A DNA stretch of 64,000 bases from positions 1,426,001-1,490,000 of the forward strand of contig NC_015474.1 in assembly GCF_000211475.1 (NCBI RefSeq), written 5' to 3'. A program made the position numbers and the translations under genes. The DNA is from Pyrococcus sp. NA2 (GTDB taxonomy: Archaea; Methanobacteriota_B; Thermococci; Thermococcales; Thermococcaceae). Of this stretch, positions 9,995-21,380 are shown in pieces; the first letter of the stretch is position 1; each line of letters opens with the position of its first letter. Below the pieces are notes generated by a model, which saw only the letters and a program-made list of their open reading frames with translations, made no database searches and had not been told where the DNA came from.

Positions 9995-10016
9995 TTAGAT
10001 ACACCTCAGGTGGGGA

Positions 10017-10535
10017 TTGAAACGTCATCATCGACCCCTTTCAGCAGGGATGACACTCATCATCGGTTCGCGACTCAAAAAGCCCTATTCGGGCTTTATT
10101 TTCGAAACGAAGCCTAATTACGGAACCAGATATCATCGGTTAACACCCCCACCATCATCCCTTACTTGCATACTCAATTTTGAAAGAGGGTTAATAAGCT
10201 TTTGTTTCCAAAACAAAAGGAATCTACAGGACTCACTTTCCGTCATCGGTTAACTCTTCAAAAATTCTCTAGAGTTAAAGTTCAATACCGATGATTTCAC
10301 AATAATAAATACTGGGATGGCATGATGACGGCACCTGCAAACCGACCTAAGCTTAAAGTTGCACTATGGTGCAACTTACATACCCCTGAACTTGGCGCCT
10401 TCCTAGCAACATGCGATTAACAACCCTCAGTAAGACCTCTCGGTAGCAAGGCAATGAAGAGAAATCCCGGAGGAAGATATTCACCATATCTTAAGGACGA
10501 AGCTTGCAAAGAAAAAGTTAATGTAAAAATACCGA
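10017..10535. repeat. Non-coding hairpin- and iteron-rich segment
   Basis: No convincing gene is present in these about 520 bases. TCATCGGTT recurs at 10060-10068, 10133-10144 (as TCATCGGTTAAC) and 10243-10254 (same 12-mer), with an inverted copy ACCGATGA at 10287-10294. The 10243-10294 part can fold as nested stems (TCATCGG/CCGATGA outside, TTAACTCT/AGAGTTAA inside). Further perfect hairpins: AAAGCCC/GGGCTTT (about 10078-10096), CTTTTGTTT/AAACAAAAG (about 10199-10219), AAGTTGCAC/GTGCAACTT (10356-10377), AAGATAT/ATATCTT (10474-10492). Stems are A/T-rich, unlike typical hyperthermophile structural RNAs, so DNA-level function (iterons, integration or replication remnant, operators) or a foreign origin is more likely. 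It abuts the defence operon's 3' end. Confidence 0.55.
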
Positions 10536-11633
10536 CTAACTTCGGAGTCCTGCGGTTTTTAGGGTTTTTATTAGATAATTGAGAAGTAACATCGCTTGAA
10601 GAACAGCGAATTCAGCATCGTTTTTACTTGGAAGTGAATTGTAGGCTTTTCCAGAACCCGCTGTAAGTGTACCATGCCTAAGGGCCGATGCATACTTGAA
10701 AATTGCATCACTGAAGTTATTAAGAACATTCTTACTACCCTTGCCCTTCCCGTCGCTGTTCATTGATTTCCCAAGAAGAGTTTCTGAAAGTTCTTGGGCC
10801 ACTTCATCTAACGCTCCACTATCAATTTCCCTAGCGATTGGGAGCACCTTAAATGCCAACTTTAATGCCCGATAAACTTTGAGTCCAGCTGGTTTTCTAG
10901 GAGTTAAGCCCTCAATACTCCGCCAAACATCATCAATGACATTCCTGTAATCATCAGTAGTGGTGACATACTCGAGCTTCTTTAAAGCTGTTAAAAGAAG
11001 TTTTTGTTTTTCAAGAAGAATCCTCAATGCCTCACGGAACTCAGGTGAAAACTTATCCAGCTTCTCTTCATCAATCGGTTCCACAATAACTTCGATAAAT
11101 TCCCGTCTTAGCATGTCTGCAGGCTCAAGAACGTCCTTAACAAAATCCTGGCGTGAAATTTTCATACCTCCACCCTGAGGCCCTTCAAAAGATATTTTTA
11201 TGGGTTTATTGAGCTTGAAGGCATCATCCTCAAGAAATCCCAAGCACTCAATCTCCCAGCTAAGTCCAATTGAAGTCACCCTTAAAAGTTCGTCAATCTC
11301 GTGAAGCTCTCGTAGTGATAATGGTTCAGGGACAATCCTAACATGCGGTGGATATGATAAAGCCTGCCAGAAGTTGTCAATACCCGCTCTTATTTTGATT
11401 GTCTCTCTACTGCTGGGGTTGAACAGGTATATGTTTCCCTTGGAGGTTATTATGTTCAAATTAACGGGTTTATCCTCGAAAAGGTATTTATCCGTAGGAT
11501 CAACTAATTTAACCTTATTGTAATACACATCCAGAACAAGTCTCATCTCTTGTGGGTATTCATGCTTCTCCCTTCTTTCCGTCCTGAGCTGCACCCGTTC
11601 AGGTTTTGTGAACTTAAGTTGAAACTCACCCAT
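10536..11633 (-). CDS. Unknown protein of the DUF499/DUF1156 operon, 365 aa
   Basis: I do not recognise a named family. The N-terminal half (to about residue 160) looks beta-rich; residues 170-260 are helical with many charged residues; the C-terminal 90 residues are helical and contain a stretch SALRHGTLTAGSGKAY followed by a hydrophobic helix (LQAMLLLNYLIKTL). The Arg-His-Gly turn and last helix are reminiscent of HEPN/Abi C-terminal RNase folds, but the full RxxxxH motif is not present as such, so this is only a hint. The ATG at 11633 has GGTGAT upstream (the frame reaches GTG 11645). It is the last gene of the operon, 57 nt after the helicase gene. Confidence 0.7.
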   Translation of the reverse strand: MGEFQLKFTKPERVQLRTERREKHEYPQEMRLVLDVYYNKVKLVDPTDKYLFEDKPVNLNIITSKGNIYLFNPSSRETIKIRAGIDNFWQALSYPPHVRIVPEPLSLRELHEIDELLRVTSIGLSWEIECLGFLEDDAFKLNKPIKISFEGPQGGGMKISRQDFVKDVLEPADMLRREFIEVIVEPIDEEKLDKFSPEFREALRILLEKQKLLLTALKKLEYVTTTDDYRNVIDDVWRSIEGLTPRKPAGLKVYRALKLAFKVLPIAREIDSGALDEVAQELSETLLGKSMNSDGKGKGSKNVLNNFSDAIFKYASALRHGTLTAGSGKAYNSLPSKNDAEFAVLQAMLLLNYLIKTLKTAGLRS

Positions 11634-11690
11634 AAAGATCACCAAGCCTTAATTGAGTTGTTCCATCTGGGTTCTCTCTAACCGGCCTTT

Positions 11691-14600
11691 CTAAGTATCT
11701 CCCTGTACTCGTTCTTGATTGAGAGATAGCCCCTTTAGGTTTATTATGTAACGTGGTTTCCATTCGATTTCTATGAGATCTTTCAGAGTATTTACCGGAT
11801 CTGGAATTATTATCGGCTCCTCGGGTTCAAGCCCCTGAAGGATACGTTGGTAATTCTCAATTGCGTGGGGAACAATGTAAAGGAGGTACTTATCCTTGTA
11901 ATATGAAGCCGCATGGTACTCGTTCTCCGTGAGTTCGACCTTGACAGGCTCCCTCTTAAACCCCTTGACCTCGACGTAAAAAGTCTCATGATTCTCCCCC
12001 ACACTCTCAATATCATACCCCCTTCCATCCGCGGAAACATCCCTTGGGTTTCTCCCGAATTTGTGCTTCTCCCACCATTCAACAACTGCCATAGCCGCAA
12101 GTTCAACTTCCTTTTTCCTCTTCCAGAGTTCGGGGTCAAACGGTTTAGACTCCCCACTGGATTTTTTGAGGGTGAACTTATTCGCGTCATTGACCCCAAT
12201 TAGGAGAACTTTCCCAATGGGCTTCTCTGAGAAGGATACTTCCACTGCTCTTTTTCTGTTCATTTCCTGTTTAACTTTCTCTCTCAGTTCTTTGAGCTTC
12301 CTCTCCCTTATGTATTTGTCGAGCTTAGTATCAGAACTAACCTTACGTATCTCGGAGTGATATTTCCCTATCAGCAGGGTAGCGCGGTTTTTGACTGATT
12401 CATGAACATCTCTGCGAAGGCACTTTATGAGCTCTGAATTAATGGCAACTTTTGTATCCACTTGCTTTTGGAGCAGTTCTTTGATTTTATCATGGTCGAT
12501 TTCGTCGAGAACCTCGAGCTCTTTGAGCCAAGTTACTGGTTTCACATCCCCGTTCTCCAAAACAACTACCGGAATTTCATTCACAACGGTTCCAAGGCCG
12601 TCAGTAAACGTGGCTATCCTAACTTCACCATAAAGGGTTTCCCCTTCCCACAAGAATGCCGCAACCCCCTCGCTCTCTAATCCTAAGAGTATGGCCTTCA
12701 TAGCACCGAGGTCGTCCAGATTTGGCCTCACGATTTCAGATGCTTTCTGAACTCTCTTCCAAATGGCTTTGACCTGCTTCTTGTTGACCAGTTTTATGTT
12801 GTCGAAATTGGGTTCTTTATCATTAATCCACATGTGCCCAAACTGATCCCCAATGGAACCATAAACGAGGCCTGTCTCCCTTAGGTATTGGAGGTAACGA
12901 ATGACATGTTGCTCCGTTACCAGTTCAAGCACGTTTTTGTCCTTCAGAAGGCGTTCAAGACGAACGTGTTTCTGAACTGCCTTCGCTTTACTCAGAGCCT
13001 CCTTGATTTTATTGAGTAACCGCCGCTTTTCCTCAAAGTTCCTGCTAATCTTTTCTCTTGCCTCCTCTGTGTTCAAGAGGTTTGCGTAGGTTTCCATTAT
13101 CACTTTCTCAATGTCCTTCTGTGAGATTATCTCACCTACAATCTCTGCACTTCCCAGGTCAAAGTCTGTCTTGATTTTGTTAATCTTGTCAAGTACAACC
13201 TCCAAAACGCGCCTTTCTACTTTAAAGACAGGAAGAATTCCGTAAATAAAAATCACGGGCTTTTTCTGTCCATATCTGTAAACCCTACCGATTCTCTGAA
13301 TGTACACGACGGGGTTCCAAGGTATTTCGTAGTTTATAACGACGTTAGCAGCCTGAAGGTCAAGGGATTCCCCAGCTGCATCGGTTGCAATCAAGATTGA
13401 CGCTCCGTCCTCAGCCCAGAGCTTCCTAACGCTCTCGTCTTTTTCCTCGGGTTTCATGCTGCCGTAGATTAGGGTTACTCTTTCTGGCCCGTACTTTTCT
13501 CCAAGGATTTCGTTGAGGTAAAACAACGTGTCGAGGTACTCCGTGAATATGATAACCTTGTTCCCCTTCTCCAAGTGTTCATCGACAATTTTCAAGAGCT
13601 CTTTGGCCTTGGTGTCTATCCGCTCCCGCCGAATTATCGATTCACCCATCTCAATGAGCTTCTTTAGACGTTCCTCCTCTACTTTGAGTTCATCACGTAG
13701 TTGGGGAGGGATAAAGTTGATTATCTCCTCCCTGAGCTGTTCAACTGTTTTATCATCGGCCTCTTCCATAGCCTCCTGGAGTTTCCTAAGAACTTCATCT
13801 GGGTCGATTTGTGACGTTTCAGTTGCAATGCCCGCCGCTTCCATGGTCAGCCTGTTAAGCCTCCTCTTTAGGGCCGCAACGCCTGCACGGATGCTCGAGG
13901 ACACGGTGCGACCGATTACAGTAGCCACAAGCCCTATGGCCCGGTTGTTCTCCTGACTGGCGAGCCTGTAGTAGTGCCTTATGTACTCCTCAACCGCTCG
14001 ATAAAACTCGCGTTCTTCGGGTGTGGGTTCAATTTCCACCGTTCTCGTTATTGGGAGTTGTGGAAAGAGCTTTCTCCCATCCAAGTCAGTTACTTCACGC
14101 TTTATCCTTCTTATCACGTACTGTCGAACGAAATCCTTGTAGTTGCTTTCGTCAACGCTGGGGTTAATAAGGCTCAGTCGGAATATGAAGTTCTCCTCCT
14201 TCCCATCATGAGGTGTCGCAGTCAGGGCAATGAAGTGCTTTGTCCGCGAGCTGACCAGCTGGATTAACTGGGCGCGCTGGTTGCCTTCCTTGGCCCTGTG
14301 GAGCTCATCCACAACCACAATATCCCAGCGGTACTCATACTCCTCAATCCATTTCTTCCAATGTTCGAGTTTTAGAGTGTCCATAGATGCTATCAGCCAC
14401 TTTTCTTTGAGCATGTCTGGGCTTTTATCAAGCTCAAAATCAACTTTGAAATCTAGGTTGAACTTCTCCTTTAACTCGCGCTTCCACTGCCGTCTAATGT
14501 TTGGGGGCACAAGGATTAGAACGCGCTGGTTCTCGTCTCTCAGTAGCATTTCCTTCAAGAAGAGACCGGTGACTATCGTTTTTCCAAGTCCCGTCTCATA

Positions 14601-14780
14601 CGCGAGCAGAACCCTAACTTCTCCCGTTTCAGCCATGTCAAGGAGAGTGAGGAAGTCCTCAATCTGATAGGGCAAGAGGTCAATCTTTGATGTAGCGAGA
14701 ACCGTCACGGGGTCGTAGAGGTAGCGGGTAAAAATGAAATTGGAATCCACGCCCACCCTAAAGCGGACGTAGTCAATCAT
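11691..14780 (-). CDS. SNF2-type helicase/ATPase with C-terminal DUF3883-like nuclease domain
   Basis: A 1029-residue SF2/SNF2-family ATPase. Motif I is ETGLGKT (about residue 62), motif II VVVDELH (about 155), motif III LTATPH (about 186); the second RecA lobe has VIIFTEYLDTL, ILIATDAAGESLDLQ and QRIGRVYRYGQ. The C-terminal section has GRGYDIES...FYVEVKG, the D...ExK arrangement of DUF3883/PD-(D/E)xK-like domains. Such helicases accompany DNA methylases in antiviral systems (DISARM DrmD-like, BREX-like). ATG 14780 overlaps the methylase stop (ATGA) and has GAGGTGG before it. Base composition is more G/C-rich than the window average. Confidence 0.9.
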   Translation of the reverse strand: MIDYVRFRVGVDSNFIFTRYLYDPVTVLATSKIDLLPYQIEDFLTLLDMAETGEVRVLLAYETGLGKTIVTGLFLKEMLLRDENQRVLILVPPNIRRQWKRELKEKFNLDFKVDFELDKSPDMLKEKWLIASMDTLKLEHWKKWIEEYEYRWDIVVVDELHRAKEGNQRAQLIQLVSSRTKHFIALTATPHDGKEENFIFRLSLINPSVDESNYKDFVRQYVIRRIKREVTDLDGRKLFPQLPITRTVEIEPTPEEREFYRAVEEYIRHYYRLASQENNRAIGLVATVIGRTVSSSIRAGVAALKRRLNRLTMEAAGIATETSQIDPDEVLRKLQEAMEEADDKTVEQLREEIINFIPPQLRDELKVEEERLKKLIEMGESIIRRERIDTKAKELLKIVDEHLEKGNKVIIFTEYLDTLFYLNEILGEKYGPERVTLIYGSMKPEEKDESVRKLWAEDGASILIATDAAGESLDLQAANVVINYEIPWNPVVYIQRIGRVYRYGQKKPVIFIYGILPVFKVERRVLEVVLDKINKIKTDFDLGSAEIVGEIISQKDIEKVIMETYANLLNTEEAREKISRNFEEKRRLLNKIKEALSKAKAVQKHVRLERLLKDKNVLELVTEQHVIRYLQYLRETGLVYGSIGDQFGHMWINDKEPNFDNIKLVNKKQVKAIWKRVQKASEIVRPNLDDLGAMKAILLGLESEGVAAFLWEGETLYGEVRIATFTDGLGTVVNEIPVVVLENGDVKPVTWLKELEVLDEIDHDKIKELLQKQVDTKVAINSELIKCLRRDVHESVKNRATLLIGKYHSEIRKVSSDTKLDKYIRERKLKELREKVKQEMNRKRAVEVSFSEKPIGKVLLIGVNDANKFTLKKSSGESKPFDPELWKRKKEVELAAMAVVEWWEKHKFGRNPRDVSADGRGYDIESVGENHETFYVEVKGFKREPVKVELTENEYHAASYYKDKYLLYIVPHAIENYQRILQGLEPEEPIIIPDPVNTLKDLIEIEWKPRYIINLKGLSLNQERVQGDT

Positions 14781-17449
14781 TTCACCCACCTCTCGATGTC
14801 AGTTTGCCTTTCACCCCGCTCTCCGATAAAGCCCAAGTTCCTTAAGTGGGTCAGTATCTCGTGTGCTATCTTGGCCTCTTCGTCATTCTCTCTCTTGGGA
14901 TCTAGTCTTATTGATGCCAGAGCCTCGAGAACTTTGATTATTGAGCCTTCTGGATATGGCGCCTCCTTGAGAACGTCTTTGAGTCCCTTGATGCCGTTCC
15001 GCACGAAGGCCCTCATGACCTTGTGAACGTAGTCTATTAACGTGGTCGCCTCAAGGGGGTCCTCTCCCTTGAACTCAAGGTCGGAGTCCCCGCGGTAGAA
15101 GTTCTCAAGAATAACCTTTTTGCTCCCCTTCTCCTCGCTTGAGTATCTTATCAGCTTCTTCTTTTCCAAGAGCCTTTCATCAATGCCGAGGCTCTTCATG
15201 AGCTGGTTGGCTGTGCTGTAATCAACTTCATCCATACCGTTTAGGCGGAGGTAGAGGTAGAACGTGGTTATCTCATCAACGTTGTCGAGGCCCGTGACCC
15301 TCTTGGCCACGTATCTCGCGAGGAACTTCATGGCAAGTTCTACTGCGTCGGCCGTTGAGGCCTTTCCCGAATAGCTTTTCAACTCGGAATACTGGGTCAG
15401 CACTTCGAGGACGGCACCGGTTGAGGCCACGAGGAGGTCGGAGCCTTTAAGGCCGTAGCCTTCGAGTTTCTTGGCCTTCTCTTCAACCTTCCTTTCGATT
15501 TCGTCCATTAAGTCTTCGATGAATCCGGTTTTGTCTTCCTTCCTCTTTCTGGTGACTATGATGAGGGAGTGATAGATAGAGCGCTTACCCCTTGCCACTG
15601 AACTCTCAGTGCTCTCCGTGTGTATCGGATATGTAGCCGTGATAACGAAACCAGCCTTCCTGAGGGCCTCGAGGACGAAGTGCCAGGCCTCAGAGCTCTT
15701 GTGCGCAAAGAAAAGAACCAGAACGCCGTCGTCATAGAGGAGCTCGTGGAGCTTTTTCAACGCCTCTGTAAAGAGTCTGTTGAAGTGCTCCTTGTCTCTG
15801 TTGCCACCGACGTCAATTTCCTCTTTGGTCTCCACCTTGCGGTTCTTGAAGAGCCTGCTCTCCTTCTCGAAGAGCCACCCAACTATCCGGCGGTGCCAGA
15901 CGTAGAAGACCTCACTGACCTCTCCGTACGGGACGTCATCGTAATAGGGCGGGTCGGTTATTATGACCTTGAACTTTTGCCCCGGGTTAAAGCGCAGGAT
16001 TGACTCGTTGTGGATTTTGACATTCCCTTCGGTTCCAGAGAGCTTCTCAATCGCGTACTTTAGCCCATTAAGAACGTTATCAATCATTCCTTGAAGGGCA
16101 CCCGATGATTTTACGAACGGATTAACCTCAAGATGGTTCCACATCATGGCAATTCCACGTTGAGCAAACATATGAGACACTTGCTGATTGTAAGAATCCC
16201 ATGTTGTAGCCCTGCAGTTCCTATCTATGTGTTTTGCCAGAATGAACGAAAGATACACTCCTACTGCCTTTGCATATTCCTCGTCCTCCTTCGCTATCTC
16301 CTCAACTATTTTCTTGGCCTTCTCGGCGTACTTCAACATGAGGAGGAGCTGGCGTGGGTTGAAGAGCTGGTAGTATCTGGGAAGATATTCATATGCCCAA
16401 GTGGTTCTGCTATCTTCTGGGATGTGCTCATCAGGAATCAGCCCTTCCCTGTAAAACCTCAGCCAGTTCCTCTTAAGTTCTCTCTTGGCCTCTTCAAACG
16501 CTTTTATATCGTCTTCACTTGGTACATCGTATGACTTCCCTCTTTTCTCCAAAAGGACAACGGCCATCATGACCTCTTCCTCGTGCTTCCGAATGTATTC
16601 TGCAACGTAATCGTCGGAAATCTGGGCACCGCACTTTAGGCATGTGAAAACACCATCGGAGACATTCCCACTTTGGGGAGCTTTACCCTTCTTGATTTCA
16701 AACTTGATTTTGTCCTCTTGGATTTTGTAGTCGATGTAGTGTGCTTCCCTGGTTACCTCTCCTTTCTTGTTTCTTTTCTCCGTGGAGAGTTGCCAGCTCC
16801 CCACCAGTGGAGTCTTGAACCCGCAGTACGGACACTTAACCACCCATGAGTAGATGTAAGCTGCGACGTCCTTCCCGTTGTGCTTCGGATAGAGGTGACC
16901 AAGTTCTTCTTTCAGCTCGTTGAGGATTTGATTTGCATATCTTTTCACGTCCTCATACAGCTTCCAGCCGTATTTCTTTGGATATTCAAGCGTGGCCTTG
17001 AGGATTAAGTAAGCGACGGGGTTGTAATCGTTGGCAACCACACTTGTCCCTACTCTCAAGACTTCAAAGGGTATCGAACCTGCTCCAGCGAAGGGGTCGA
17101 GAACCTCCGGAACTTCTCCCCAGGTTTTCTTTATTGCCTTTAGGAGAAGTCCTCTATCTGGGTCGTAGTTGTGGGCTCTCTTCTCTTTATTAAGCTTGAG
17201 TAGCTCGACAAAATTGGCATAACGGGCTTTCTCAAGGTCATCATAAGCTTTGGGGTCAATTTTCCAGGGCATCTCGTCAATTCCAATCAAGGAGCCTATG
17301 GCAACAGCTCTCGCTGTTATCAGAGGTTTCCCAGTCCAATAATAGTGAATCGAGGATATTGGAGGTTTGGCATTCCCTAATTTCTCCGTCTTTGCCTCCT
17401 TATTTATCTCCTCAATCGGCAGGAACTCCTCAATTATTAGCTTCTTCAT
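14777..17449 (-). CDS. DUF1156-type DNA (adenine/cytosine-N4) methylase
   Basis: An 890-residue amino-methyltransferase. It has the SAM motif DPFAGAGSIPFEVLRVG (about residue 118), the acidic NDYNPVAY, and the catalytic motif ITDPPYYDDVPYGEV in the second half; a permuted order with N-terminal SAM motif is typical of DUF1156 proteins. Two CxxC pairs (CPYCG, CLKCG) between them likely form zinc ribbons that sit in the target recognition part. In defence systems such enzymes mark host DNA. The frame starts at ATG 17464, overlapping the upstream stop, but ATG 17449 has GAGGTGGAGG before it and is preferred. Coupled to the helicase gene by a 4-nt overlap. Confidence 0.9.
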   Translation of the reverse strand: MKKLIIEEFLPIEEINKEAKTEKLGNAKPPISSIHYYWTGKPLITARAVAIGSLIGIDEMPWKIDPKAYDDLEKARYANFVELLKLNKEKRAHNYDPDRGLLLKAIKKTWGEVPEVLDPFAGAGSIPFEVLRVGTSVVANDYNPVAYLILKATLEYPKKYGWKLYEDVKRYANQILNELKEELGHLYPKHNGKDVAAYIYSWVVKCPYCGFKTPLVGSWQLSTEKRNKKGEVTREAHYIDYKIQEDKIKFEIKKGKAPQSGNVSDGVFTCLKCGAQISDDYVAEYIRKHEEEVMMAVVLLEKRGKSYDVPSEDDIKAFEEAKRELKRNWLRFYREGLIPDEHIPEDSRTTWAYEYLPRYYQLFNPRQLLLMLKYAEKAKKIVEEIAKEDEEYAKAVGVYLSFILAKHIDRNCRATTWDSYNQQVSHMFAQRGIAMMWNHLEVNPFVKSSGALQGMIDNVLNGLKYAIEKLSGTEGNVKIHNESILRFNPGQKFKVIITDPPYYDDVPYGEVSEVFYVWHRRIVGWLFEKESRLFKNRKVETKEEIDVGGNRDKEHFNRLFTEALKKLHELLYDDGVLVLFFAHKSSEAWHFVLEALRKAGFVITATYPIHTESTESSVARGKRSIYHSLIIVTRKRKEDKTGFIEDLMDEIERKVEEKAKKLEGYGLKGSDLLVASTGAVLEVLTQYSELKSYSGKASTADAVELAMKFLARYVAKRVTGLDNVDEITTFYLYLRLNGMDEVDYSTANQLMKSLGIDERLLEKKKLIRYSSEEKGSKKVILENFYRGDSDLEFKGEDPLEATTLIDYVHKVMRAFVRNGIKGLKDVLKEAPYPEGSIIKVLEALASIRLDPKRENDEEAKIAHEILTHLRNLGFIGERGERQTDIERWVK

Positions 17450-17460
17450 AGCCCTCCACC

Positions 17461-17844
17461 TCATTGAATCTCGTAAAGCACCTTAAAGGCGGTAATCCCT
17501 CTCCTGCTCGATGAGACCTTCCATGCCCAGAAAAGGACTTCCTCATCAGGTAAAGAGGAAACAGCATCGAGAATTGCATACTTCAATTCTGGCCTCTTGA
17601 GGGTAGCGAGGACCCTCATTGCAAGGTAGAGCCTCATCGCGAGCACTACGTCGTAAATCTCGGCTTTTCCCTTGAATTCGACCCCGAATTTTTTCAGGAT
17701 TTCCTCGAGGATATGGCCCTTGCCGAGGCCTATCCTCGCCAGCCTGTTGGTGTAGCTCTCCTGCTCACTCCTAAAGTGCTCGTAGAGCTCGTAATAGTAA
17801 CCCTTCCTCCGGAGTTCATACCATGTGTTCTTTATCGCGACCAT
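17461..17844 (-). CDS. Small helical protein of the defence operon, 127 aa
   Basis: No family recognised. The protein is helical, with an aromatic N-terminal segment (WYELRRKGYYYELYEHF) and a C-terminal segment with hydrophobic helices (VVLAMRLYLAMRVLATL; VLFWAWKVSSSRRG). ATG 17844 overlaps the DUF499 stop (TGATG) and its own stop overlaps or abuts the methylase start, so it is translated in a coupled fashion between the ATPase and the methylase. Its tight placement suggests a structural partner of one of these large proteins. Retained short size and overlaps argue that it is real. Confidence 0.75.
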   Translation of the reverse strand: MVAIKNTWYELRRKGYYYELYEHFRSEQESYTNRLARIGLGKGHILEEILKKFGVEFKGKAEIYDVVLAMRLYLAMRVLATLKRPELKYAILDAVSSLPDEEVLFWAWKVSSSRRGITAFKVLYEIQ

Positions 17845-20800
17845 CAAGCTTCCCTCTCAACGGTGAATTCCTTCTTGGACTTCGTGTCCTTCAATGGCTC
17901 AATGTAATCAAGTACCTCATCATCTACCTCGATTCCCTCTGAGAACTCAAGAATTATGGTGTAATCGATGTCCTCCTCAATCTCTGAAACGGCTCTTGCC
18001 GCATCTTCCAGTTTCTGGGCGTCATTAGCCTCAACCTCACGTATCTTGAGATCAACCCTTTCTCCCTTGGCCACGAGGCTTACCTTGGCATCAACGTTAA
18101 GCAACGCGAGAATTCCAAGGACGTTGCCCATGTCGTCCGTGAGCTCACCTTTGCCCGCAATCTCCAGTCCCTTCCAGAGGTCTCCTTTCTCTGGCCATTC
18201 AACGATTATTTTTTTAGGACCTTTCGAGCCACGAGGTTTGGTAGGCCCAATAGGTCCCACAGGACCCATGTCTATTATGTATCTCCTTTTAATGTCCTCT
18301 GCAAGCTCTGAGGTAAGAATGATTGTCGAGTCTTCTATTGGCCCTCCAAAGCCGTTAAGCAATACCCTTCTTTCAGACTCTTCGAGCTCCTCTCCATTAA
18401 CTGCCCTTATGAACAGCCCCTCTTCTCCGTTCCAGACTTCCAACTTGGGGGACGTTCTGATTGCCTCTTTCAAATCTTCATCCCCATAGTTCGGGAGGCT
18501 CCGTGCAAGATCCCGGAACTTGCGGTAGCCGTCTGATAGGTGCTTCATTATCTTCTCTGCTATCACATCTGCCTTCTTCTGCTTGGCCTTCTCAATCAGC
18601 TCCTCGGCGTACTCCCTCTTGAGAACGAAATCTCCTTCCCTGACCTCGGATAGCTCCGTTCCCAGTTTTAAGTTCTCAAGAAGCTTTGCAGCGTTCGCTG
18701 TACTGATTTCCCCGACTTCAAGTGGAATTCCGTCGGACCACTTCAGATAGGCAAGTTTGCCCTCTTTTACAAGGTTCTTTATTCCCTCCTTCAAAAACGT
18801 GGCCGGAACGTACGGAAGTTTGGGTATTTTGGCGGGTTTATCGAGCAGTTCTTTGACTTTGATGTACACTTTGTTCCCCATGAGTTCTTCAACGTAAGCA
18901 AGCCCTACACTCTTCAGAACCTTGCCCTTGCTTACTAAGACTTCAAAGATTCTCTCAGAATACGGTTTCTTCTCAGCCTCTTCAGATACAATGGAACTTA
19001 TTGGAATTATGACGATCTCATTTCCTTTGTAGTATGCGGCGGAAGTGTACGTGGCAACCAGCATCTGAAGGGTCTTGGCTTCGTACTCCTTGGCAATCTC
19101 GGATAGCTCGTCCTTTATGTCCTTGCGCTCTTTTTTCAGGTTCTCAGCGGCGATTCTTTGTTTGACTGTCTCAGTGAGCTTTGGAACCATCTCAGGGTCA
19201 GGGAGCACTATCACAACGGCGTTCCTGTTAGGGGTCGTTATCTCTATCATCCTGCTGATTATCCTGTTGAACGTCTCCTGGACTATGATACTTTTCTCCT
19301 TACCTGCAAATTCCTCTTCCTGGGAGACCCGCTTGTATTCCTCAAGGACTTCTTCGTAATCAGTAAGGAATAGATGGAGGCTTCTTGGTTCAACGTTCTC
19401 CACTTTGTCCTCAAATATGTGTATTTTTAGGTAGTTCGTGCTCTTGAAGACCTTTGGTATGGTCTTTAATAGGCTCTTGCGAACCTCTGTGTCCTTTATG
19501 TCCTTTGCATGCCTGCGAACGAGCGCTCTCGGGTTAACCTCGGGCTTGAAGTAGTACTTGCCAGTCCCAGAGTGACGCCAGAGGTGAACCAAAACCTCGT
19601 TGTAGAGTTTTATAAGGTACTCCTCCACAGTTCCGGGTTTAAGGGAAGTGTCTGCAAGAACTCTAACGATGTCTTTGGGTGTTCCACCTGCCTTTTGGAC
19701 TTCTGGGTAGAGGGAATACAAGTAAACGGCAGTTGCTATTCTCGTGTGGGTTCCAAAGCGAGTACGACCCTCTTTCTTACGATCCTCCTCCTGGGCATGC
19801 GCATCTCCCTTATCGTTGGCAATGTCAACCTCAACGATTTCCTTGAAGTTGTTTCCAAAAGGCCGCGTGAGCTCATCCCTTATCGCGGCCTCAGAAAGGT
19901 CTATCTCACCTGCGGATATCATCAGGCTGGTATCAGGTAATTCATCCAAGTGGGCGAGGATGTTGACTATCGTTTTTGCCATTATCCTCATTATCGCCCT
20001 GGTCTTCTGAAAGTTCTCAAAGAGGGCCGCCCTCCCGAAGAACACTTCCTCGACGAGTTCTGGGTTGAATGGATACGACTCTGCAAGTTTGTCTATCTTA
20101 GTGGTGTCACTGTACGAACCATAGAGAACCGCCACTTCTTTGGCAACCCTGTTTGCGAAGTTTCTATCCACGTGTTCGACGAGACGTTTTTTGAGAATCT
20201 TAATGATGTCACCTTTTGATACCGGGGAAAGGCTCTTAGCACTCCTTTCAAGGATTTGAACGAGGCTACTAAGGAGTTCGGATGCCCTCTTGTACGCCTG
20301 AGATTGAGGAATCGTTATGACAACCAAGGGCGTTTTAAGGCCCGCAACAGCCACCATGAGTGAATGAAGAAACGCTTTGTTTCTGTCGGCCCTCTCGCTG
20401 GAAGCACCTATTTTCTCAAAATACACAACCAGCTCGTCCAAAAGGAAGAGAACCGGCTGTCCTACGCTTCTGATGACCTCCTTTATTGTTGGAACGTCCT
20501 TGGGGCCCTCTTTTAGTTCTTCGCTATCCAAGGCCTCACCAAGTATCTCCCACAAATCCTTGGAAGGGTCAATACTATGTCCGTCTATGGAGATTATCTT
20601 GGTTGTCGGAATCTCTGAAATCCCGACCTCTTGAAGGAGCTCTCTAATTTCTGGAACAGCTATGGCAACGTTCCGCTCGTTAAAAAGGTGATAGAGCGCT
20701 ATTAACGTGTGTGTCTTACCACCACCAAATGTTGTGTCTAGAGCTAATATTGCAGGGGCTCCTTCGAGACCACTAACACGAGAGACTGCGAACTTGATGA

Positions 20801-21023
20801 TGTTCTTTAGTTCTTGGGTAAAATATGTCGCTCTAAAGAACTTTCTTGGGTCTGTGTACACATCTGGAGCGTCTCCGCTCAGAAAGTTCGAGAACTCGAC
20901 TGCGAACAGAGATTCGTCAACGGCACTTGGCCCCTTTTCTTTCAGTCTTTCGAGATCGGGGGAGAACTTGAGTTTTCCATTCTTTATCGCATATTTTAGT
21001 GAAAGTGAGCTAACTCCCACCAT
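17844..21023 (-). CDS. DUF499-type ATPase of defence operon
   Basis: A 1059-residue P-loop ATPase. Walker A is TTFGGGKTHTL (about residues 97-107) and Walker B VLFLLDELVVYF (about 191-202), the pattern of DUF499 (BrxC/PglY-like large ATPases are analogous). A collagen-like Gly-Pro stretch (GPVGPIGPTKP...) occurs near residue 925, encoded at about 18210-18270, and separates a C-terminal 110-residue domain. DUF499 ATPases are repeatedly found with DUF1156 methylases and helicases in defence islands. ATG 21023 is chosen over an upstream frame start at 21050. The minus-strand A/T-rich element at about 21060-21075 could be the promoter. First gene of the five-gene operon. Confidence 0.88.
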   Translation of the reverse strand: MVGVSSLSLKYAIKNGKLKFSPDLERLKEKGPSAVDESLFAVEFSNFLSGDAPDVYTDPRKFFRATYFTQELKNIIKFAVSRVSGLEGAPAILALDTTFGGGKTHTLIALYHLFNERNVAIAVPEIRELLQEVGISEIPTTKIISIDGHSIDPSKDLWEILGEALDSEELKEGPKDVPTIKEVIRSVGQPVLFLLDELVVYFEKIGASSERADRNKAFLHSLMVAVAGLKTPLVVITIPQSQAYKRASELLSSLVQILERSAKSLSPVSKGDIIKILKKRLVEHVDRNFANRVAKEVAVLYGSYSDTTKIDKLAESYPFNPELVEEVFFGRAALFENFQKTRAIMRIMAKTIVNILAHLDELPDTSLMISAGEIDLSEAAIRDELTRPFGNNFKEIVEVDIANDKGDAHAQEEDRKKEGRTRFGTHTRIATAVYLYSLYPEVQKAGGTPKDIVRVLADTSLKPGTVEEYLIKLYNEVLVHLWRHSGTGKYYFKPEVNPRALVRRHAKDIKDTEVRKSLLKTIPKVFKSTNYLKIHIFEDKVENVEPRSLHLFLTDYEEVLEEYKRVSQEEEFAGKEKSIIVQETFNRIISRMIEITTPNRNAVVIVLPDPEMVPKLTETVKQRIAAENLKKERKDIKDELSEIAKEYEAKTLQMLVATYTSAAYYKGNEIVIIPISSIVSEEAEKKPYSERIFEVLVSKGKVLKSVGLAYVEELMGNKVYIKVKELLDKPAKIPKLPYVPATFLKEGIKNLVKEGKLAYLKWSDGIPLEVGEISTANAAKLLENLKLGTELSEVREGDFVLKREYAEELIEKAKQKKADVIAEKIMKHLSDGYRKFRDLARSLPNYGDEDLKEAIRTSPKLEVWNGEEGLFIRAVNGEELEESERRVLLNGFGGPIEDSTIILTSELAEDIKRRYIIDMGPVGPIGPTKPRGSKGPKKIIVEWPEKGDLWKGLEIAGKGELTDDMGNVLGILALLNVDAKVSLVAKGERVDLKIREVEANDAQKLEDAARAVSEIEEDIDYTIILEFSEGIEVDDEVLDYIEPLKDTKSKKEFTVEREA

Positions 21024-21380
21024 AGTTTGACACCCACTAGGATAACACACAACAGAGGTAATAAAATATCTTTCGAATTAACACCAGCGTTGTGGGTAAC
21101 ATAAGATGACAACTGGTACATAATAAGTCCCAAGGAATACTATCAAGCCCTTAATATTTCTGTTATCGAACCCTCTGAATTTCCTAACAACAAATTAGTA
21201 ACCCCGGCGTTACGTTCTTTCAAGGTTTTCAAGAGAAAATGGGCATGCCATAGTCAAAGATAAGCTAAAAATTTCGAGTGTTTTTTTACCTTGGAACTTT
21301 GAGATAGACAAATTTTCTCCATTTTATGGATATTGTGCTAAATGAAACTTTTAAATGTTTAAAGCTCCGTAAGATGGCTT
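21024..21380. other. Intergenic region, defence operon promoter side
   Basis: No gene is supported here. The minus-strand GATATTTTATT (about 21064-21074) is the best TATA-like element for the DUF499 operon, 45-50 nt from its start. A T7 tract at about 21281-21287 and other A/T-rich stretches lie between the two operons. A short open frame on the minus strand (21286-21525) overlaps the ATPase gene out of frame and is not supported. Confidence 0.4.

Follow-up and report, generated by a model that had tools for sequence, protein, structure and literature searches.

The window analysed here is a stretch of 64,000 nucleotides that forms part of the complete 1.86-Mb genome of Pyrococcus sp. NA2, and its ORF list confirms five open reading frames on the minus strand at 10536-21023. 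The first encodes a DUF499/HmaC-type (BrxC-like) AAA+ ATPase (17844..21023; 1059 aa from the ATG at 21023, which is the preferred start, an alternative upstream GTG at 21050 being possible). Directly after it come the genes for a small DUF7680-like protein of 127-128 aa (17461..17844), for a DUF1156/HmaB-type DNA amino-methyltransferase of 895 aa with a DPPY motif and a zinc-ribbon-like insert (14777..17464), and for an HmaA-type SNF2 helicase of 1029 aa with a C-terminal NOV_C (DUF3883) domain of the PD-(D/E)XK type (11691..14780). The fifth gene (10536..11633) encodes a protein of about 365 aa with no assigned family, and beyond it on the same strand lies the C/D-box sRNA sR55 (10004..10067; Rfam RF01307, 86.5 bits). 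Read from the DNA, the junctions are TGATG between the DUF499 and small genes (1 nt overlap) and ATGA at both the small gene/methylase and methylase/helicase junctions (4 nt overlap each), while 57 nt separate the helicase stop (11691) from the fifth-gene ATG (11633). The first-pass annotation had described this layout, five same-strand genes with overlaps of 1-4 nt and 57 nt before the last, and all of it is seen in the DNA.

Large proteins. The ATPase, amino-methylase and helicase-nuclease motifs that had been called earlier are intact, and a search against PADLOC models (2023 version) assigns each of the three proteins to a component of one system. The DUF499 protein matches HmaC (E=1.3e-57) and, under the model cut-off, NCBIfam DUF499_antiphage (E=1.4e-42); Pfam DUF499 gives no match, so this is a divergent DUF499 member, with GGGKTH and LLDE motifs. 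The methylase matches HmaB (E=4e-81), Pfam DUF1156 (E=8e-11) and N6_N4_Mtase, carries DPFAGAGSIP, DPPY and a CPYC/CLKC pair, and is 86% identical to a protein from a Thermococcus MAG. The helicase matches HmaA (E=2.8e-90) and the Pfam families Helicase_C, SNF2 and NOV_C (the last at E 7e-15), with GLGKT, DELH and QRIGRVYR motifs; at its C-terminus GYDIES...EVK, a motif of the PD-(D/E)XK type inside NOV_C, predicts a nuclease. Only ~35 residues precede the helicase core, versus ~100 in the Thermus proteins and in one of the Thermococci classes described below (class C). The Pfam scan of the helicase gave no PLD match and no TUDOR match, although divergent TUDORs may escape such a scan. Among the five operon proteins there was no Pfam match to DUF3780, and none to PglZ in PADLOC or Pfam.

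Small protein. The earlier reading had left two of the five genes unrecognised, which stands for the fifth but not for the small one. Against Pfam DUF7680 (PF24728) the small protein scores 21.8 bits (E=2.4e-4), under the curated cut-off of 24. In profile-profile comparison the match reaches 94% probability (E=1.2e-7), and 60 shuffled controls reach at most 1.1%. A DUF7680 HMM built only from mesophile and halophile proteins was run on 3262 ORFs, comprising all loci and the whole window. It found the small protein (E=0.0015) as the only ORF of the window, the next unrelated ORF having E=0.46; the counterparts in three Thermococcales loci (L018-L020) scored ~1e-10 and that of a WOR-3 operon 3e-4, and above the inclusion threshold there were only the corresponding operon ORFs. 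Judged by these profiles, the small protein is a divergent DUF7680 member despite its score under the Pfam cut-off, and members of this family occupy one and the same place in the operon in different phyla. It is predicted to be all-helical (AlphaFold2 pLDDT 80, pTM 0.74). Since this model rests on two sequences and a Foldseek search with it gave no PDB match (best E 1.5), any role for the protein is a guess. PADLOC and NCBIfam had no match for the DUF7680 family members tested, and the word DUF7680 was absent from the open-access literature searched.

Related operons. A methylase scan of genome contigs with strict patterns returned two loci only; the broader sample was drawn from searches of whole genomes and plasmids. 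The WOR-3 operon, from a candidate division WOR-3 genome, has the order DUF499, 123-aa protein, PIN-like gene, methylase, 158-aa protein, helicase; the order DUF499-small-DUF1156-helicase is thus common to it and the window, with the PIN-like and 158-aa genes inserted in WOR-3. Identities between the two are 41% for the DUF499 protein, 39.5% for the small protein, 60% for the methylase and 50% for the helicase. DUF7680 proteins of Nostoc, Pseudanabaena, haloarchaeon DL31, Aminobacter and Rhodococcus match the Pfam family at E 5e-28 to 3e-47. In four of these the gene lies between DUF499 and DUF1156, and in DL31, where the DUF499 gene is unannotated, directly before DUF1156. On cyanobacterial, rhizobial, Rhodococcus and haloarchaeal plasmids it follows DUF499 upstream of DUF1156 on one strand, and further plasmid regions keep the DUF499-DUF7680-DUF1156 order, sometimes with inserted genes. 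A DUF499 or DUF1156 gene occurs within 7 kb of DUF7680 in 41 of 44 plasmid records (a count read from tables of plasmid regions that include near-identical records), the other three being unchecked. That DUF499 and DUF1156 recur together, as stated in the first pass, is borne out by the co-occurrence of DUF499, DUF1156 and SNF2 genes across genomes and plasmids. Helicases of the plasmid DUF7680 operons are mostly PLD-like, some of them weakly or not recognised by Pfam; unlike most of these, the window and WOR-3 helicases carry NOV_C. Relatives of the small gene at or near the DUF499-DUF1156 interval in cyanobacteria, alphaproteobacteria, Rhodococcus, haloarchaea and WOR-3 suggest that the small protein is a conserved fourth part, common to archaea and bacteria and missing from published descriptions of these systems.

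Thermococci hold several arrangements, which we call classes A to D. To class A belong the window operon and a fragment from a Thermococcus MAG. Class B has the order methylase, DUF499, a protein of 145-178 aa, and helicase with NOV_C; class C has helicase, methylase and a DUF499 protein of about 900 aa, with no small gene recognised; class D has a PglZ-like gene together with DUF7680. In the class D loci L018, L019 and L020 (Thermococcales) the DUF499, PglZ-like and DUF7680 genes lie on one strand, faced by the methylase, and genes for a helicase and an SMC-like ATPase are close by. The host genome itself carries a second, different DUF499-type operon of class B at 1.098-1.108 Mb (G000:C1:1097500-1117000; L012 549-10325), in which methylase, DUF499, a 147-aa protein and a NOV_C helicase each overlap the next, and which is found across Thermococcales. 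The methylase tree places window and WOR-3 as sister to Thermococcales class B (99/97) and groups class C with Thermus (99/97), away from window and WOR-3; the DUF499 tree places window and WOR-3 with weak support (64/52). The class B small protein (P0006) was compared with DUF7680 as well. Its 71% probability against the window pair (best shuffle 14.6%) is suggestive, but against the rest of the family it reaches 1.8%, below the best shuffle of 2.4%, and it is therefore not claimed as DUF7680.

It could be that the operon is a three-component type-1 BREX-Related (Hma) system, as defined below, and that the small gene, for example an antitoxin, moves on its own and was inserted beside DUF499 by chance. 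Published definitions do have three core genes, such loci frequently contain insertions, toxin-antitoxin genes among them, and the class C and Thermus systems have no recognisable small gene. Inserted genes vary, however, whereas the small gene stays in one place even where the hosts are very distant, and start and stop codons often overlap there; the small proteins are related across archaea and bacteria, and DUF499 or DUF1156 stands alongside in nearly every record of the searches made. We therefore regard an incidental small gene as unlikely.

Fifth gene. The first-pass annotation had treated the locus as a five-gene system, which would make the fifth protein a working part, e.g. a sensor or nucleic-acid reader. 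The gene shares the strand of the others and its 57-nt spacing makes co-transcription plausible, but its occurrence is not tied to that of the other four. It is convincing in 2 of 396 archaeal genomes, the host and one other, where the relative (L009 5733-8068, 43% identity) has a tyrosine-recombinase-like gene as its neighbour; the core genes are missing from this Thermococcales contig, which is short and belongs to an incomplete assembly. Neither the WOR-3 operon, which has the four core genes in the same order, nor any further DUF1156 locus inspected contains the fifth gene. Its composition (GC 0.415, GC3 0.389) is host-like, against GC3 of 0.54-0.66 in the core genes. A working five-gene system is accordingly quite improbable; the operon should be read as 4+1, the fifth gene probably being separate accessory cargo outside the conserved unit. 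The fifth protein had no meaningful relative in Pfam, PADLOC, NCBIfam, PHROGs or PDB (by sequence), nor in the plasmids, phages or viral contigs searched, and AlphaFold gave no usable model of it (pLDDT 43). An impression by eye that its C-terminus resembles Abi_C/HEPN was not backed by Pfam, and its one relative does not keep the RH dipeptide.

Acquisition. The GC3 of the four core genes lies above that of all 42 other window ORFs (mean 0.417, sd 0.065, max 0.523). Higher G+C and different codon choice, previously taken as signs of transfer for the whole operon, thus hold for these four and fail for the host-like fifth gene. Eight other Pyrococcus genomes had no close counterpart of the operon. 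On the left, the genus shares an oxidoreductase gene, a 154-aa gene and sR55, and blastn matches to six of seven Pyrococcus genomes stop at 10066-10069, the end of sR55, the seventh reaching about 10207; on the right side, synteny with one Pyrococcus genome (G001) resumes at window position ~47.9 kb. The operon therefore lies at the edge of a variable segment. There is no tRNA in the window and so no tRNA integration site, and the search for repeats at the island edge gave only a weak 22-nt repeat. Similar TCATCGGTT stretches follow sR55 within 10004-10270, perhaps further sRNAs. Composition and synteny support recent acquisition of the operon. That it is decayed, or has a non-defence function (an ORC-like DUF499 protein controlling replication, for example), is very improbable: DUF499 is homologous to ORC1/CDC6 ATPases (PMC7641849), but all four core reading frames are open with motifs intact, and the patchy distribution in the genus and the transfer signs fit defence.

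Known systems. The suggestion that the operon may match a recently named family proved right, all three PADLOC Hma models being matched. Hma (helicase-methylase-ATPase) was proposed in 2021 from gene association as a system of three genes (Payne et al. 2021, PMC8565338); the window has all three signature proteins and adds a DUF7680-like gene between HmaC and HmaB. A 2026 paper (Rakesh and Krishnan, PMC12839542) recasts systems of the Hma kind as DUF499-centred BREX-Related (BR) systems of three types. It reports DUF499/DUF1156/SNF2 systems in 3592 taxa, describes the commonest type as a three-gene core, sees BrxC, BrxXI and BrxHII as the relatives of DUF499, the methylase and the helicase, respectively, and refers to a report (its reference 112) that the helicase-nuclease of such a system is antiphage. 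With type 1 the window operon shares a DUF499 ATPase, a DUF1156 methylase with zinc insert and an SNF2 helicase with a C-terminal PD-(D/E)XK-type nuclease domain. Type 1 is described there as ATPase, methylase and helicase only, with an N-terminal TUDOR on the helicase, whereas the window has an extra small subunit and only the short N-terminal stretch ahead of its helicase core. Type 2, as outlined in the same text, combines an HKD/PLD-helicase with DUF3780; DUF7680 relatives do mostly accompany helicases with a PLD-like N-terminus, but the window helicase lacks PLD, its operon has no DUF3780 match, and DUF7680 and DUF3780 are different Pfam families. Type 3 is given as PglZ plus iSTAND; the class D loci combine DUF499, DUF1156, a PglZ-like gene and DUF7680, while the window operon has no PglZ-like gene.

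With NOV_C, an extra subunit and neither a TUDOR-sized extension nor PLD nor PglZ, the operon exactly fits none of the three published BR types, and within the accessible open-access literature the Hma and BR definitions omit the DUF7680-like subunit. A COG1743-DUF499-SWI2/SNF2-nuclease (EVE) cassette was noted in diverse archaea (Bell et al. 2020, PMC7641849). The 158-aa WOR-3 protein resembles EVE, by eye only, but the window operon has no EVE gene, and the small subunit is unmentioned in the accessible part of that paper. As to BREX (BrxC, type 3), the searches made gave no PglZ, BrxA, BrxB or BrxL match among the window operon proteins. The helicase resembles DrmD of DISARM, at 298 bits against an NCBIfam cut-off of 610, but DISARM needs DrmA/DrmB and no other operon protein matches a DISARM model. 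We conclude that the kind of system is known but its four-subunit form undescribed, and that its point of interest is the conserved small subunit.

Gene content, conserved gene order, motifs, the kinship of the small protein with DUF7680 and the signs of transfer were all observed, and on these grounds the locus is likely a horizontally acquired, restriction-modification-like BR (Hma) defence operon of DUF499 ATPase, DUF7680-like subunit, DUF1156 methylase and SNF2 helicase-nuclease. BrxC binds DNA in an ATP-dependent manner, and BrxA and BrxB control BrxC assemblies (PMC13326643). By analogy, the putative defence might work as follows. The methylase would mark its own motif on host DNA as self, a putative activity, and the DUF499 AAA+ protein, like BrxC, would bind DNA ATP-dependently and nucleate a putative surveillance complex. 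For the small helical subunit, whose translation is coupled to that of DUF499, we propose that it would bind DUF499 and tune or license its assembly, a candidate role likened to that of BrxA and BrxB acting on BrxC. On unmodified DNA the complex would recruit or license the SNF2 motor, and the NOV_C PD-(D/E)XK-type domain would carry out the putative cleavage.

More broadly, we lean towards DUF7680 being an unreported core subunit of a widespread archaeal and bacterial lineage of DUF499-centred BR systems, with PLD- and NOV_C-type helicases alike; the class B small protein after DUF499 in Thermococcales may be a further diverged form. If so, the window operon would be the first described hybrid subtype, joining DUF7680 to a NOV_C nuclease without a TUDOR-sized extension. 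A conserved fourth subunit could account for cases in which a cloned system is reconstituted only in part or not at all; it would also be a candidate for regulating a BrxC-like ATPase and would serve detection tools as a better marker. A hyperthermophilic member could supply stable proteins for structures on BREX-like ATPase regulation.

Among the related loci, class C (L050 13213-14298, L054 and others) has, just before DUF499, a protein that matches nothing in Pfam and whose N-terminus is hydrophobic and membrane-like. One class B helicase is in two frames (L060 1286-4290), a possible pseudogene or sequencing error. The DUF1156 methylase gene of an Annamia dubia plasmid (L078 10030-14484) apparently contains an intein, with an NCBIfam intein_Nterm match inside.
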